The position numbers were made by a program, and so were the translations under genes. This document shows, piece by piece, positions 235 through 6,213 of a DNA stretch of 6,213 nucleotides. Where the stretch lies: positions 1-6,213 of the forward strand of contig CAIXAY010000410.1 in the NCBI GenBank assembly GCA_903917505.1, read 5' to 3'. Position 1 is the first letter of the stretch; the number at the start of each line of letters is the position of its first letter. This stretch comes from an uncultured beta proteobacterium. GTDB taxonomy: Bacteria > Pseudomonadota > Gammaproteobacteria > Burkholderiales > Rhodocyclaceae. Below the pieces are notes generated by a model. The model ran no database searches. It had not been told where the DNA came from and saw only the letters and a program-made list of their open reading frames with translations.

Positions 235-1125
235 TCAGCCCGGTACTTGATCCTGGCCGCGGCGATCGTCGCGCGAAGTTTTCGTGTGGCGCACAATTTC
301 GTCGTCGGCCGCGATTTCGCCGCTGGCAATCAGGCAGCCGTAAGCGATGGCCAGCATGTCGGCGACGCCGCCCATGGTGATGTTCATGGCGATGTAGGCG
401 CGATTGCGCTCTTCAAGGTAAGCGATGCAGTCGGCCCCACGTGCGACGCGCTGCTCGAGTTCGCCGCCGTCGCGCCGGACTTGCGCGAGGCCCGCCTCCC
501 CGACGCGGTGCAGCGTCGTCGTGTCGTTTACGGTTTGCATCAGGCTGGCCAGCATGGCCAGCGAGGCGGCGAAGAAATCGCCGGACTGCCGGCGTGTCGC
601 GCGAAACGCGGGCAGCGCGCCGGCGAAAATCGACGGGAAACCGGCGAGCGTTTCGGCGACGATGCCGCCGGCACCGTATTTCGACCTGGCCTGCTGCCCG
701 TTGGTCGCGGCGCGCTCGCCGCCGGCGAAGAACTCGCCGGCCAGCGCCGACAGCGCCGCGCGGATCGCGACCTCGTCGCCCGACGCGGCGTGGCGGCGGG
801 CGATCAGCAGCATGCCGGCGAGGAAAATGAAACCCTTGTGCGTATTGGTTCCCAGCGTCGAGAGCAGGCGCCGTTCGGCGGCCAGGCCGATCTGTCGCTG
901 GGCGGCGAAGGGTTCGCCGGCGGCGAGCGAGCCGACCATCGCGTCAAGATACTCGGCGACCTGGTCGATGGACTGTTCCATGATCGTAAGCGACAGGTCG
1001 GCATGCGAACCGGAATCGGCGAGGTCGACGAGTCCGGGCTTGGGGGTCAGGTAAAGTTCGAGGCGCGCGCCCTTGACCAGCGCCGCGGCCAGCGCTTCAA
1101 GTTCTGAAATGGGCAAGGAGCTCAT
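235..1125 (-). CDS. citG: Triphosphoribosyl-dephospho-CoA synthase CitG
   Basis: This 296-residue protein makes 2'-(5''-triphosphoribosyl)-3'-dephospho-CoA from ATP and dephospho-CoA (EC 2.4.2.52), the precursor of the citrate lyase prosthetic group. Family motifs are visible in order: TPKPGLVD at 27-34 with GSH at 39-41, GTNTHKG at 92-98, YGAGG at 150-154 leading to AGFPSI at 161-166, NDTTTLHR at 200-207 and GGVADMLA at 252-259. The length is typical. The start is an ATG at 1125 that lies inside citX (29-nt overlap). No clear Shine-Dalgarno precedes it at normal spacing, so translation is probably coupled to citX and weak, which would suit a catalytic accessory enzyme. The homologous MdcB of malonate decarboxylase is the alternative by family, but the cit neighbours decide for CitG. 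It is the last gene of the operon. Confidence 0.92.
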   Translation of the reverse strand: MSSLPISELEALAAALVKGARLELYLTPKPGLVDLADSGSHADLSLTIMEQSIDQVAEYLDAMVGSLAAGEPFAAQRQIGLAAERRLLSTLGTNTHKGFIFLAGMLLIARRHAASGDEVAIRAALSALAGEFFAGGERAATNGQQARSKYGAGGIVAETLAGFPSIFAGALPAFRATRRQSGDFFAASLAMLASLMQTVNDTTTLHRVGEAGLAQVRRDGGELEQRVARGADCIAYLEERNRAYIAMNITMGGVADMLAIAYGCLIASGEIAADDEIVRHTKTSRDDRRGQDQVPG

Positions 1126-1627
1126 TGGTTCTGGCGATCACTTCCTCGGGCGGATGGCGCCGGTCGCGCATGCAATCTACGGCCGCTGCGTTGCAAACGA
1201 GGCAGGCGCGCGCCGGCAGCGCGAGTTCCTTGCGACCGACTTGCGTCCCGTCCGCCGCGTAAACGTCAAGGTCGGCCAGGCGCGCCGCGGGATGCATGGT
1301 CTCGAGGCGCATGCATTTCTTCTTGACCACCGTCGGGTCGAGCTTGACGGCGATGATCGCGTAGGGACCGAGCAGGTCGCTTGCCGTCCTCAGGATCAGC
1401 TGCCCGGGGAAAGTCACCGCCAGCTCACCGAGCAGCCAGTGATAGAGCGCTTTCGCGCCGGGCGGGCTTTTCTCGCTGCCCGGGATGTTGAGCGACAGGA
1501 AGATCGTCGCCGGATGGCCCTGGCTCAGATGCTGAGCAAGGCCATCCTGGCGCCTGTCCCGGGCTTCGAGATAATCACGCGCGGACTTGTCGGACGACGT
1601 CAATGATCGAACCGTCACGATACTCAA
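1097..1627 (-). CDS. citX: Apo-citrate lyase phosphoribosyl-dephospho-CoA transferase CitX
   Basis: CitX transfers the prosthetic group made by CitG onto the acyl carrier protein CitD with release of pyrophosphate (EC 2.7.7.61). Family signatures are an N-terminal EARDRRQ at 21-27, SLNIPG at 45-50, HPAARLADLDVY at 112-123 and LPARACLVC at 137-145, followed by the RRHPPEE tail at 156-162. The length of about 176 residues is close to the E. coli protein. The start is uncertain. TTG at 1627 gives a 53-nt overlap with citF, while in-frame GTG at 1618 or TTG at 1603 would give 173 or 168 residues. None has a good Shine-Dalgarno. Conservation is clear only from about residue 18, so it does not settle the choice. 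Expression is likely coupled to citF. It is a separate protein here, not fused to CitG. Confidence 0.9.
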   Translation of the reverse strand: MSIVTVRSLTSSDKSARDYLEARDRRQDGLAQHLSQGHPATIFLSLNIPGSEKSPPGAKALYHWLLGELAVTFPGQLILRTASDLLGPYAIIAVKLDPTVVKKKCMRLETMHPAARLADLDVYAADGTQVGRKELALPARACLVCNAAAVDCMRDRRHPPEEVIARTNELLAHFRT

Positions 1628-3113
1628 TCAAGGCAACGATCTTGTCCTCGAACTCGATGGCCTTCGGAACGCCGGTCACCGCGTAGATCTCGTCGCGCAG
1701 CTGGTGGATATCCTTGACCGGCGCATGCCGGCGAATGAGTTCCGCCTTCAGTTCGGGGAGATTGTCGTTGACCGCGATGCCGCGCTCGGTGACGATCACG
1801 CCGACCGTTTCGCCCGGCGTGGTGATCGTCGTCACCGCGTCGCGAACGATGGGCAGGCGGCCGCGGATCGACGGCGCGACGACGATCGACACCTTGGCGC
1901 CGGCCGCGACGTCGCAGTGCCCGCCGGTGTTGTGCAAGAGGTAGCCCATCGACTCGGTGTTGACGTTGACGTTGAAGTTCACGTCGACTTCGGTGGCGCT
2001 CAGGATCGCGCAATCGAGGCGATTGACCACCGAACCGCAGTTGAACGGGTTGGCGTACATGCCGGCGGTCATTTCGACGTGCTTCTGGTTGCGGCCGATC
2101 GACTCGACGGCGCGCAGGTCGAAACACTGGACATCGAACAAGGCTTCGAACAGGCCTTCCTCGAGCATGTCGACGAAGTTGCCGGTGATGCCGCCGCAAC
2201 CGAAGCTGCCCTTGACCTTGCCTTTGCGCATCATGGCGCGCACGTTCTCGGCGACGGCCAGCGAGATGCCGCCGGTGCCGGTCTGGAAGGAGAAACCGTC
2301 CTTGAGGTAGCCCGAGGACTCCATCACCAGCGCCGCATACTTGGCGATCTGCAGGCCGATCGGATCGGTGGTGATGCGCGTCGTCGACGACACGATCTTC
2401 TTCGGGTCGCCGAGTTTCGGCACCTGCGCGACGAAGTCCACCACCGACTGCGGAATGCCGACCGGAACGGCGGGGAAGGGCACCAGATTGTCGGTGACGG
2501 CAACGACCTTGTGCGCATGCTGCGCATCGACTTGCGCATAGCCTAAGCTGCCGCAGGCCGAGGGGCCGTAGAAGCCGTTGAAGTTGCCGTACTCGTCGCA
2601 GTAAGGCGCGGCGAGGAAGGCAACATCGACCGCAATCTCGCCGGTGATCAGCGAGCGCGCACGCCCGCCGTGCGAGCGCACGACGATCGGGCAATCGAGT
2701 TCGCCCTTGGAAACCAGCTCGCCGATCGGGCCATTGACGCCGCATTCGAAGCCGGTGATCACGCCCTTGCGGATGTAGGGGATCAGTTCGGCATGGACGA
2801 TGTGCACCGAGCTCGAGGCGATCTTGATGTCGCGAATGCCGAGCGCATCGATTTCCTTGACCAGGTCGTTCAAGAGCTGGTCGCCGTTGCGCAGGCTGTG
2901 GTGCGTCGATATGGTCATGCCGTCCTTGAGGCCCGAGGCGATGATCGCCTCCTTGAGCCCGCCGACCAGCTTGCTGCCGTTATGGGTGATGCGCCGGATC
3001 GCCCGCGTCGAGCGCTCGGCGTGCGGTTGCAGTGACCAGGGATCGCTGTAGGGAATCAGCGTCTTGCCGGCGAATGTGTCCGGTATCTGCCGTCCCAGGC
3101 TATTCAGCGCCAT
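1575..3113 (-). CDS. citF: Citrate lyase alpha subunit (citrate:acetyl-ACP transferase) CitF
   Basis: CitF exchanges citrate for acetate on the acetyl-thioester arm of CitD, forming citryl-ACP and releasing acetate (EC 2.8.3.10). The 512-residue length fits the family. Recognisable segments include SLRNGDQLLNDLV (73-85), SHGGRARSLITGE (147-159), CDEYGNFNGFYGPSACGSLG (172-191), FSFQTGTGGISLAV (274-287), GGHCD (397-401) and ERGIAVN (443-449), ending in the typical YRDGSIIDVV. The start is the ATG at 3113, preceded by GAGGAGG with 6-nt spacing. A longer in-frame reading exists upstream, but its extra 15 residues are not family-like and lie in the citE coding region. The gene overlaps the end of citE by 14 nt. 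It looks intact. Confidence 0.96.
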   Translation of the reverse strand: MALNSLGRQIPDTFAGKTLIPYSDPWSLQPHAERSTRAIRRITHNGSKLVGGLKEAIIASGLKDGMTISTHHSLRNGDQLLNDLVKEIDALGIRDIKIASSSVHIVHAELIPYIRKGVITGFECGVNGPIGELVSKGELDCPIVVRSHGGRARSLITGEIAVDVAFLAAPYCDEYGNFNGFYGPSACGSLGYAQVDAQHAHKVVAVTDNLVPFPAVPVGIPQSVVDFVAQVPKLGDPKKIVSSTTRITTDPIGLQIAKYAALVMESSGYLKDGFSFQTGTGGISLAVAENVRAMMRKGKVKGSFGCGGITGNFVDMLEEGLFEALFDVQCFDLRAVESIGRNQKHVEMTAGMYANPFNCGSVVNRLDCAILSATEVDVNFNVNVNTESMGYLLHNTGGHCDVAAGAKVSIVVAPSIRGRLPIVRDAVTTITTPGETVGVIVTERGIAVNDNLPELKAELIRRHAPVKDIHQLRDEIYAVTGVPKAIEFEDKIVALIEYRDGSIIDVVRQVRA

Positions 3114-4020
3114 GGATATCCTCCTCGTTAATGATGATGTCGACCATGCCGTGGGCACGGGCGGTGCGCAGCACGCGGGCGGCGCGAATGACGATCGGCA
3201 TATCGACCATCTTGCCCTTCAGTGAAATGACGCCGGTGCCCATCTCGCGGGCGCGCTTGATGGCCTCCATGACCTGCAGCGCGTAATCGATCTCTTCCTG
3301 CTTGGGCGCGAAGACCTCGTGGATCACGTCGGTCTGGCGCGGATTGACCAGGCACTTGCCGGTGAAGCCGAGGCGCTTGATCAGCTCGGTCTCGGCACGC
3401 AGCGCGTCCATGTCGTTGACGTCGGCGAAGATCGAATCGATGGCCTGGATGCCGGCCGCTTTCGCCGCCCACAGCACGTTCATGCGCGCGTTGAACAACT
3501 CCTCGCCGGTCTTGGTGCGGTTGATTTCCATCGTCGCCGTGTAATCCTCGGCGCCGAAGGCCAGCCCGATCAGTCGCGGCGAAGAGCGGGCGATCAGCGT
3601 CGCGTTGATCACCGCCTGCGCGGTCTCGATCGACGGCAGGATCTTGAAATGGCCGAGCTTGAGCCCGAGTTCCTCCTCGTATTCGGTGAGCAGGGTATCG
3701 AGCCGCTCGACGATTTCCGGCGTGTCGGCTTTCGGCAGGCGAATGCCGTCGGGAATGCCGGGCAGGATGGCTTTCAGGTCGTCGAGCGCCCACTTGGTAT
3801 CGAGGCCGTTGATGCGCACCAGGACTTCTTTGTTGCGCTCCTTGTACGACTCGAGGAAGCGCTTGACCAGGATGCGCGCGGCGTCCTTCTCGCTGAGCGG
3901 GACCGCGTCCTCGAGGTCGATGATGACGCCGTCGCACTGGAACAGCGGAATGTTCTGCAACATCGACGGCATGTTGCCCGGCACGTAGAGCAGCGTCCGG
4001 CGTAATTGATACTCGGCCAC
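3100..4020 (-). CDS. citE: Citrate lyase beta subunit (citryl-ACP lyase) CitE
   Basis: CitE cleaves citryl-ACP to oxaloacetate and acetyl-ACP (EC 4.1.3.34) in the citrate lyase complex. It is a TIM-barrel protein of the HpcH/HpaI-CitE family. From the GTG start at 4020 it has 306 residues, as expected. Visible hallmarks are RRTLLYVPGN (7-16), CDGVIIDLEDAV (29-40), VRINGLDT (68-75, with Arg69), LPKADTPE (95-102), LPSIETA (128-134, with Glu132) and FGAEDYT (155-161, with Asp159). Arg69, Glu132 and Asp159 correspond to the substrate- and Mg-binding residues of the family. The GTG start is supported by GAGGAG 7 nt upstream. An in-frame ATG at 4089 would add 23 residues that are not family-like and lie inside the preceding gene. 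The start is 4 nt after the PPC gene stop. Confidence 0.95.
   Translation of the reverse strand: MAEYQLRRTLLYVPGNMPSMLQNIPLFQCDGVIIDLEDAVPLSEKDAARILVKRFLESYKERNKEVLVRINGLDTKWALDDLKAILPGIPDGIRLPKADTPEIVERLDTLLTEYEEELGLKLGHFKILPSIETAQAVINATLIARSSPRLIGLAFGAEDYTATMEINRTKTGEELFNARMNVLWAAKAAGIQAIDSIFADVNDMDALRAETELIKRLGFTGKCLVNPRQTDVIHEVFAPKQEEIDYALQVMEAIKRAREMGTGVISLKGKMVDMPIVIRAARVLRTARAHGMVDIIINEEDIHGAE
3120..3126 (-). promoter_or_regulatory. Ribosome binding site of citF
   Basis: GAGGAGG lies 6 nt before the ATG at 3113, within the last codons of citE. It decides the citF start against the longer open frame. Confidence 0.8.
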
Positions 4021-4024
4021 GGTG

Positions 4025-4504
4025 TCACTCCTCGGCGAAGAAAATGGTTGGCGTACCGCCCGATTTGGACAGGTGGCGCTGGATGCCATCGACGATCAGT
4101 TCGATGAGGACGATCTCGCAGGTAGCGAAGACCTCGGCGTCGGCCATGTGCCCGCCGACGACGTCGCCGGACGATTTGCCGGCCATGATGTGCAGATGGC
4201 AGTCGAACTGCTCGTCCACTTCGCTCGGAACGATGTTGCCCGACAGGGCGAGCAGTTCGAGCGGGCCTTCGATCTCGTGCGGAATCAGGCGCGCCGAAGT
4301 GATCGGCAATTTGGCGCCGCTCTTGATGTCGTTCAGGCGAACGTTCTTGACCGAGCCGATGGCCGAGAGGATCACCGCATTGTTGACCTTTTCGGTCCTG
4401 ACGAATTCGCGGATGCATTCGACGAGGCTCTCGCCGGGCAGCACCTTGATGATGAAGCGGCGTCCCTGCGTATATTCCTTGTACCAGAATCCCTTGTTGT
4501 TCAT
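4025..4504 (-). CDS. PPC/DUF296-domain protein embedded in the citrate lyase operon
   Basis: The 159-residue product is a single PPC (DUF296, COG1661-like) domain. The family pattern is clear: GESLVECIREF (24-34), a hydrophobic strand with SAIGSV (47-52), EIEGPLELLALSGNI (77-91), the histidine motif HLH (His103, His105) and VVGGHM (116-120, with His119), then a strand ATCEIVLIEL. In this family the conserved histidines cluster and are thought to bind metal. Plant members with AT-hooks bind DNA, but there is no AT-hook here, so DNA binding is not supported. No signal peptide or membrane segment is seen, so it is cytoplasmic. The ATG at 4504 has AGGAGG 6 nt upstream, while a GTG one codon earlier would leave only 3 nt. 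The start overlaps the citD stop by 1 nt, and citE follows after 4 nt. It is not a canonical cit gene and its function is unknown. Tight integration suggests a role in citrate lyase action or control. The family call is firm; the role is inference. Confidence 0.88.
   Translation of the reverse strand: MNNKGFWYKEYTQGRRFIIKVLPGESLVECIREFVRTEKVNNAVILSAIGSVKNVRLNDIKSGAKLPITSARLIPHEIEGPLELLALSGNIVPSEVDEQFDCHLHIMAGKSSGDVVGGHMADAEVFATCEIVLIELIVDGIQRHLSKSGGTPTIFFAEE
4028..4033 (-). promoter_or_regulatory. Ribosome binding site of citE
   Basis: GAGGAG stands 7 nt before the GTG at 4020 and overlaps the final codons of the PPC gene. It supports the GTG start over the ATG at 4089. Confidence 0.75.
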
Positions 4505-4767
4505 CACAGTCCTCCTGCGCGCTGCAGCGCGGTCTCAAGGCGGGCCTCGATGGCGTAATCGAGAGCGCCGCGGTCACTGATGCTGATCCTGCCGCTGACC
4601 GTGCCGTGCTTGGCGAGAACCTCTTCAAGCTTGGCGCGGATCAGGTGCTCGAACTGTTTCTTGACGGTCGATTCGATTTCGATGATCAGCGTTTCGGCCG
4701 GTTCGACCGTGACCATCAGGTCGCTCGACTGCACGGTGCCGGCCTGCCCTTTCTTGCCTATCTTCAT
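4504..4767 (-). CDS. citD: Citrate lyase acyl carrier protein (gamma subunit) CitD
   Basis: This 87-residue protein carries the phosphoribosyl-dephospho-CoA arm on which citrate is activated and cleaved. The N-terminus MKIGKKGQAGTVQSSD matches the family pattern. Ser14, in VQSSD, is at the position of the serine modified in Klebsiella CitD. The conserved EIES-VKKQF segment (residues 30-39) and SDRGALDYAIEARLETA (64-80) follow. In many homologues the second motif reads GALDC; here the cysteine is Tyr. The start ATG overlaps the citC stop by 4 nt (ATGA) and has AGGAGG 6 nt upstream. Length is normal. Confidence 0.95.
   Translation of the reverse strand: MKIGKKGQAGTVQSSDLMVTVEPAETLIIEIESTVKKQFEHLIRAKLEEVLAKHGTVSGRISISDRGALDYAIEARLETALQRAGGL
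4511..4516 (-). promoter_or_regulatory. Ribosome binding site of the PPC gene
   Basis: AGGAGG with 6-nt spacing favours the ATG at 4504 over the adjacent GTG at 4507. Motif and spacing are the same as for citD. Confidence 0.75.

Positions 4768-5971: not shown

Positions 5972-6213
<242 letters not shown>

Follow-up and report, generated by a model that had tools for sequence, protein, structure and literature searches.

A conserved PPC-domain gene inside the citrate lyase operon of one enzyme branch, and its probable link to the lyase

Citrate lyase is usually regarded as complete with its three subunits and three maturation enzymes. Here we describe a seventh gene in the citrate lyase operon of an uncultured beta proteobacterium of the Rhodocyclaceae, carried on a stretch of 6,213 nucleotides (contig CAIXAY010000410.1 of assembly GCA_903917505.1; hereafter the window). 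The gene, here called PPC, encodes a PCC/DUF296 protein and sits inside the block of structural subunit genes D-E-F, and the operon reads citC-D-[PPC]-E-F-X-G, all on the minus strand. Judged from the trees, PPC in citrate lyase operons is of one origin, shared with a branch of the enzyme itself, and a functional link between the two is very probable. We give about even chances to the further reading that PPC serves this citrate lyase lineage as an accessory subunit or as a physical partner that binds tightly. The partner reading is based on the position amid the D-E-F genes, the single origin, the tight spacing, a set of distinctive invariant residues and the change seen in CitE after loss of PPC. 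The operon itself is known; its seventh gene, although conserved, had gone unnoticed.

PPC operons occur in four phyla and include those of Geomonas, Citrifermentans and Propionivibrio. A PPC profile search of the GTDB collection, which represents each of 84,980 species by a single genome, yielded 28 loci, the scan being built on two short peptide patterns and reaching close relatives only. The order citD-PPC-citE on one strand was found in 26 of the 28; the remaining two loci code for PCC proteins of Firmicutes, 31-33% identical, and no cit gene appears in the flanks seen. The 26 loci come from 25 genomes of Rhodocyclaceae and other Pseudomonadota, Geobacterales, a Myxococcales bin and Holophagaceae. 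PPC is the sole PCC gene in 18 of these genomes, one has both its PCC copies inside cit blocks, and six have further PCC genes, which are placed outside the operon-borne group.

A reverse search used CitF as query and then looked for PPC beside citF; most loci scored as PPC-less were viewed only within 1.5 kb of citF, where some show no citE or citD, and second copies without a locus were left out of that survey. In Desulfuromonadia, the class of genome G007, citF was found in 42 of 195 genomes and PPC adjoins it in 37. These 37 are all the genomes with a citF of the branch type, each with PPC next to citE, and the five without PPC carry another citF type, about 41% identical. The phylum of the same genome, Thermodesulfobacteriota, whose genomes are partly shared with the class set, has citF in 6 of 198 genomes and PPC next to it in 2. 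Elsewhere citF is found in 34 of 199 Acidobacteriota genomes (30 examined, PPC adjoining in 2), in 6 of 146 Myxococcota genomes (PPC adjoining in 1, and one collapsed operon) and, at full length, in 3 of 399 Burkholderiales genomes (PPC adjoining in 1). Among 249 Firmicutes genomes, PPC was beside citF in none of the 19 loci examined. With 26 of 28 loci and 37 of 37 branch-type Desulfuromonadia genomes showing the order, the arrangement is no peculiarity of this genome. The betaproteobacterial scope of the original prediction turns out too narrow, as Geobacterales, a Myxococcales bin and Holophagaceae carry it as well. The genes around the operons give no clue; the ten looked at vary between genomes.

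The enzyme and the extra gene share their boundaries. On the CitF tree, the 54 PPC-bearing rows (the window and 53 genomes from four phyla) are split from 60 rows in which no PPC was seen beside citF with an approximate likelihood ratio test (aLRT) support of 100. Identity to the window CitF is about 67-94% within the PPC-bearing branch and about 37-52% for full-length proteins outside it. The operon-borne PPC proteins likewise group apart from 17 other PCC proteins, at a modest support of 80/90. In all 35 loci that hold the three genes, with start codons picked by script, the gap from citD to PPC is -4 to +23 nt and that from PPC to citE is -8 to +18 nt. One genome (G001) carries a second citD-PPC-citE-citF block of 3,208 bp (L004, 9727-12934), 99.9% identical and about 2.1 Mb from the full operon on the same contig; no citC, citX or citG was found around it. 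This second block adjoins an NAD-glutamate dehydrogenase gene and is either a real duplication or an assembly product.

The most telling material comes from a loss of PPC within one genus of Rhodocyclaceae, that of genome G1524. Of its 28 genomes, 17 have a full citF; PPC lies beside citE in 10 and not in 7. The seven PPC-less rows fall together in the trees of both CitF and CitE, and the two that were tested on the CitF tree are nested deep in the PPC-bearing branch with supports of 99-100, which points to a single loss event. No PCC gene was found elsewhere in the two of the seven genomes that were checked. In CitE of the seven rows, 19-25 of the 124 sites conserved in PPC-bearing rows are changed, and in CitF 3-5 of 223. 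For rows L269 and L270 the difference between CitE and CitF gives Fisher p values of 7e-9 and 1e-6. The stem branch of the PPC-less group measures 0.399 for CitE and 0.146 for CitF, and the mean ratio of outgroup distances in the PPC-less rows is 1.51 for CitE, 1.16 for CitX, 1.04 for CitD and 1.02 for CitG.

A PPC-bearing neighbour, L271, shows 0 of 124 CitE and 1 of 223 CitF changes. It is a weak control, because the conserved sites were defined in part from L006, its near twin, and a leave-out control was therefore made in which each of 53 PPC-bearing rows was taken without its near kin (CitF identity of at least 85% or at least 80%) and the conserved sites were redefined. The changed share of CitE reached at most 6.1% at the 85% cut-off and 7.9% at the 80% cut-off, and none of the 53 rows came to 15%. 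The share is 15-20% in the seven PPC-less rows, for which the closest PPC-bearing CitF is 80-81% identical. Their ratio of CitE to CitF change is 6-10, and a ratio of at least 5 was found in 1 of 53 controls at the 85% cut-off and in none at the 80% cut-off. Together with the grouping of the PPC proteins, the single origin and the tight spacing, this change in CitE lends strong support to the predicted functional link. A loss of PPC without effect on the enzyme had been named as evidence to the contrary; the natural loss does leave the operon in place, but CitE changed.

Fifteen CitE sites are changed in all seven PPC-less rows (41, 92, 98, 104, 105, 109, 113, 116, 118, 134, 165, 174, 176, 178 and 184), and 17 in at least six of the seven, nine of these within 92-118. 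Ten of the 17 distinguish CitE of PPC-bearing operons from other CitE (p 0.0005); this value and the Fisher p values above treat positions as independent, although the seven rows share one event. In a shuffle on the L269/L270 set, none of 5,000 rounds scored as high as the best 27-residue window; the stretch 92-118 was chosen after the data had been seen. Import of CitE from a PPC-free lineage is unsupported, since the L269 and L270 CitE proteins nest in the PPC-bearing branch (100/100). Their position inside that branch is unsure: when they were constrained to group with the Rhodocyclaceae, the approximately unbiased (AU) test gave p 0.071.

Several observations weigh against a partner role for PPC or against CitE as its contact. 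The PPC-less operons keep citD, citE, citF, citX and citG, and PPC is therefore not needed for every such enzyme. In the trees of CitD, CitX and CitG the seven rows do not group together. CitF is also somewhat further out in these rows, with a distance ratio of 1.30 against 1.51 for CitE, and CitD carries almost no footprint, with 0-3 of 35 conserved sites changed in six PPC-less rows; the CitD counts cover 32 PPC-bearing and 6 PPC-less rows, fewer because many loci end before citD. Three of the changed CitE residues, A134, E174 and A178, are retained by 82-100% of the citrate lyases that lack PPC. This fits a substrate switch, and any other alteration along that branch, a new substrate for example, would leave the same picture in CitE. 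Two attempts to refine the contact failed as well. A C-terminal CitE motif, [DE][DE]x[IVL][HYNF]G (window 3103-3126), is present in 50 of 51 CitE from PPC-bearing operons vs 0 of 47 from the others, a count that omits the window, L203 (citE in two pieces), L236 (short), the second loci of one genome and fragments. This acidic tail was considered as a dock for PPC and rejected, since it is kept in all 7 PPC-less relatives; staying on after the loss, the motif marks the branch and not PPC. A single face on the CitE helix 101-118 was not significant, with 2,078 to 8,226 of 20,000 random subsets scoring as high.

In the mechanism that we propose, PPC would be produced coordinately with CitD and CitE and would bind the CitD-CitE-CitF enzyme, chiefly through contact with CitE. 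Once bound, it would support or regulate the enzyme, and CitE would have been re-shaped once PPC was gone. In its most specific form, to which we give somewhat less than an even chance, PPC would be a fourth subunit docking on CitE at about residues 92-118 and 165-184, as stabiliser or as on/off switch of the acyl-carrier cycle, and the lineage that shed PPC would have rebuilt CitE. The protein itself has one feature of this kind. Its loop 61-70 ranks fourth of 16 ten-residue blocks in conservation and has the lowest confidence in the structure model (57), a combination that might resemble a loop ordered by a partner.

The window PPC matches PF03479 (PCC) with E 2.1e-27 and 96.2 bits against a cut-off of 25, and has the PCC fold. 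His103, His105 and His119 are all present, as predicted, and these HxH...H residues are presumably the usual metal site of PCC/DUF296 proteins. PPC could act in the pathway as a small enzyme that depends on metal, for instance one that decarboxylates oxaloacetate or hydrolyses the acetyl-CitD thioester, and a citrate lyase deacetylase activity is known from Rhodopseudomonas gelatinosa. The family comparison makes this rather unlikely. Among 54 operon-borne PPCs the triad is whole in 45 and changed by H119Q in 4; the 5 in which it is broken are all of Holophaga type, four of them with no triad His at all (QYR, EYR) and the fifth with only His105 (RHQ). Their operons nevertheless keep the gene order and the PPC invariant residues, and none of the 29 residues invariant across the 54 proteins is a His. 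The metal-binding character first proposed thus fits the window protein, but metal is not what defines or keeps the arrangement in every lineage. Within the acetolactate decarboxylase family, there was no Pfam match for PPC at E 0.001, PF03479 being the only one. Proteins of the acetolactate decarboxylase / PTD012 fold group have chains of 209-238 and 313 residues, compared with 159 in PPC, and share 10-15% identity with it; no work joining the PPC domain with acetolactate decarboxylase was found in the literature searched, which covered few subscription journals.

PPC might instead help in assembly, or in attaching the cofactor to CitD or the complex, and not stay on as a stable subunit. Its start is coupled to citD, and the maturation genes citC, citX and citG are encoded in the same operon. 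We regard this as unlikely, for the position of PPC and the block duplication track D-E-F and not C, X and G, and CitX and CitG are little changed after the loss. Four genomes have citC away from the operon and retain PPC there. PPC as a substitute for a missing citC was considered and dropped, because citC lies elsewhere in those four genomes, in pieces in one of them.

That PPC is a hitchhiker without a role in citrate lyase, inherited with the operon as a unit, seems improbable. One origin does mean that all PPC-bearing operons may share one insertion, and one lineage has lost the gene. It has nonetheless kept 29 invariant residues and open frames over four phyla, stayed where citC left the operon, and in the PPC-less lineage CitE changed more than in any of the 53 PPC-bearing rows. 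A regulator of the operon that binds DNA or senses citrate is very improbable: some sources name such proteins predicted DNA-binding and plant AHL relatives have a separate AT-hook, but PPC has none, its pI is 5.56, and a footprint in CitE is not what a regulator would be expected to leave. From the pI and the missing hook we favour the view, already part of the original prediction, that PPC is not a transcription factor; an AT-hook core, which we take to be of the RGRP type, was not seen in the 159 amino acids of the window protein.

Operon-borne PPC differs in several ways from the PCC-domain proteins it was compared with. Plant AHL proteins have the PCC domain in common with it; they are nuclear and carry AT-hooks. 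Prokaryotic PCC/DUF296 structures are available (3HTN, 2DT4, 2H6L, 3HWU, 2NMU, 2HX0 and 2P6Y), none titled as a citrate lyase partner, and set against these proteins of known structure some operon-borne PPCs lack the His triad. The invariant K20, G63, P67, R72 and P81 of operon-borne PPCs are absent from all 15 of the other PCC proteins in the comparison, a set separate from those structures. A second PCC subfamily with a GDADAGS motif is present in five Propionivibrio-type genomes (L040, L152-L155).

Like other citCDEFXG operons, the window carries the six named genes on one strand and in their usual order; unlike them it has PPC between citD and citE, close to both, and its CitF lies in a separate branch. 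In Enterococcus faecalis the order is oadHDB-citCDEFX-oadA-citMG (PMC3198936). No description of an operon gene for a DUF296/PPC-domain protein with citrate lyase was found in the literature searched, in line with the prediction that the arrangement is undescribed. A seven-tag cluster has, on the other hand, been in view since 2010: the genome report on Geobacter bemidjiensis gives its citCDEFXG as Gbem_3862-Gbem_3856, seven tags for six named genes, with citX as Gbem_3857 and citG-1 as Gbem_3856 (PMC2996986). Five tags remain for C, D, E and F, and the extra unnamed one is probably PPC. The same report proposes use of citrate lyase in carbon dioxide fixation for Geobacter (PMC2996986). If PPC is a seventh component, a bacterial PCC-domain protein would gain a concrete partner, and control of citrate cleavage, or of its use in CO2 fixation in Geobacter, would become directly testable. 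The natural loss within one genus offers ready pairs with and without the gene.

The window genes are as follows.
4025..4504, minus strand: PPC (PCC/DUF296), 159 aa, ATG at 4504, stop ending at 4025
4504..4767, minus strand: citD, acyl carrier subunit, 87 aa; TIGR01608 79.9 bits, cut-off 63.5
3100..4020, minus strand: citE, lyase subunit, GTG at 4020; TIGR01588 337.5 bits, under the cut-off of 443.4
1575..3113, minus strand: citF, alpha subunit; TIGR01584 619.6 bits, cut-off 501.45
1097..1627, minus strand: citX, cofactor transferase; TIGR03124 99.1 bits, slightly under the cut-off of 105.25
235..1125, minus strand: citG-type triphosphoribosyl-dephospho-CoA synthase; Pfam CitG 164 bits
4764..5786, minus strand: citC, citrate lyase ligase; TIGR00124 306.3 bits, cut-off 262.1
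5972..6211, minus strand: monomeric isocitrate dehydrogenase, C-terminal end, upstream neighbour of the cit genes

The predicted placement of an intact PPC gene between citD and citE is correct in its coordinates and in its junctions. The citD stop overlaps the PPC ATG by 1 nt, 4 nt separate the PPC stop from the citE GTG, and citD and PPC have the start AGGAGG-N6-ATG in common. All six neighbours, citC, citD, citE, citF, citX and citG, are matched by Pfam on the one strand; citC, citD and citF pass their NCBIfam cut-offs, and citE, citX and citG are under theirs. The citG-type protein (235-1125) scores higher with NCBIfam MdcB (malonate, 168 bits) than with CitG (135 bits), under both cut-offs.

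A few loci depart from the common pattern. Genome G746 (L243/L102) was considered as a counter-example and set aside, as citD, citE and part of citF are missing along with PPC; there citC (residues 1-213) fuses into citF (from residue 69), by deletion or in a collapsed assembly. In L203 (457-1373) citE lies in two frames, and citF of L236 (genome G1368) has one stop; each is a broken gene or a sequence error in an otherwise normal operon. As in the window, a gene for monomeric isocitrate dehydrogenase lies upstream of the operon in L001, L008-L011, L269 and L270.
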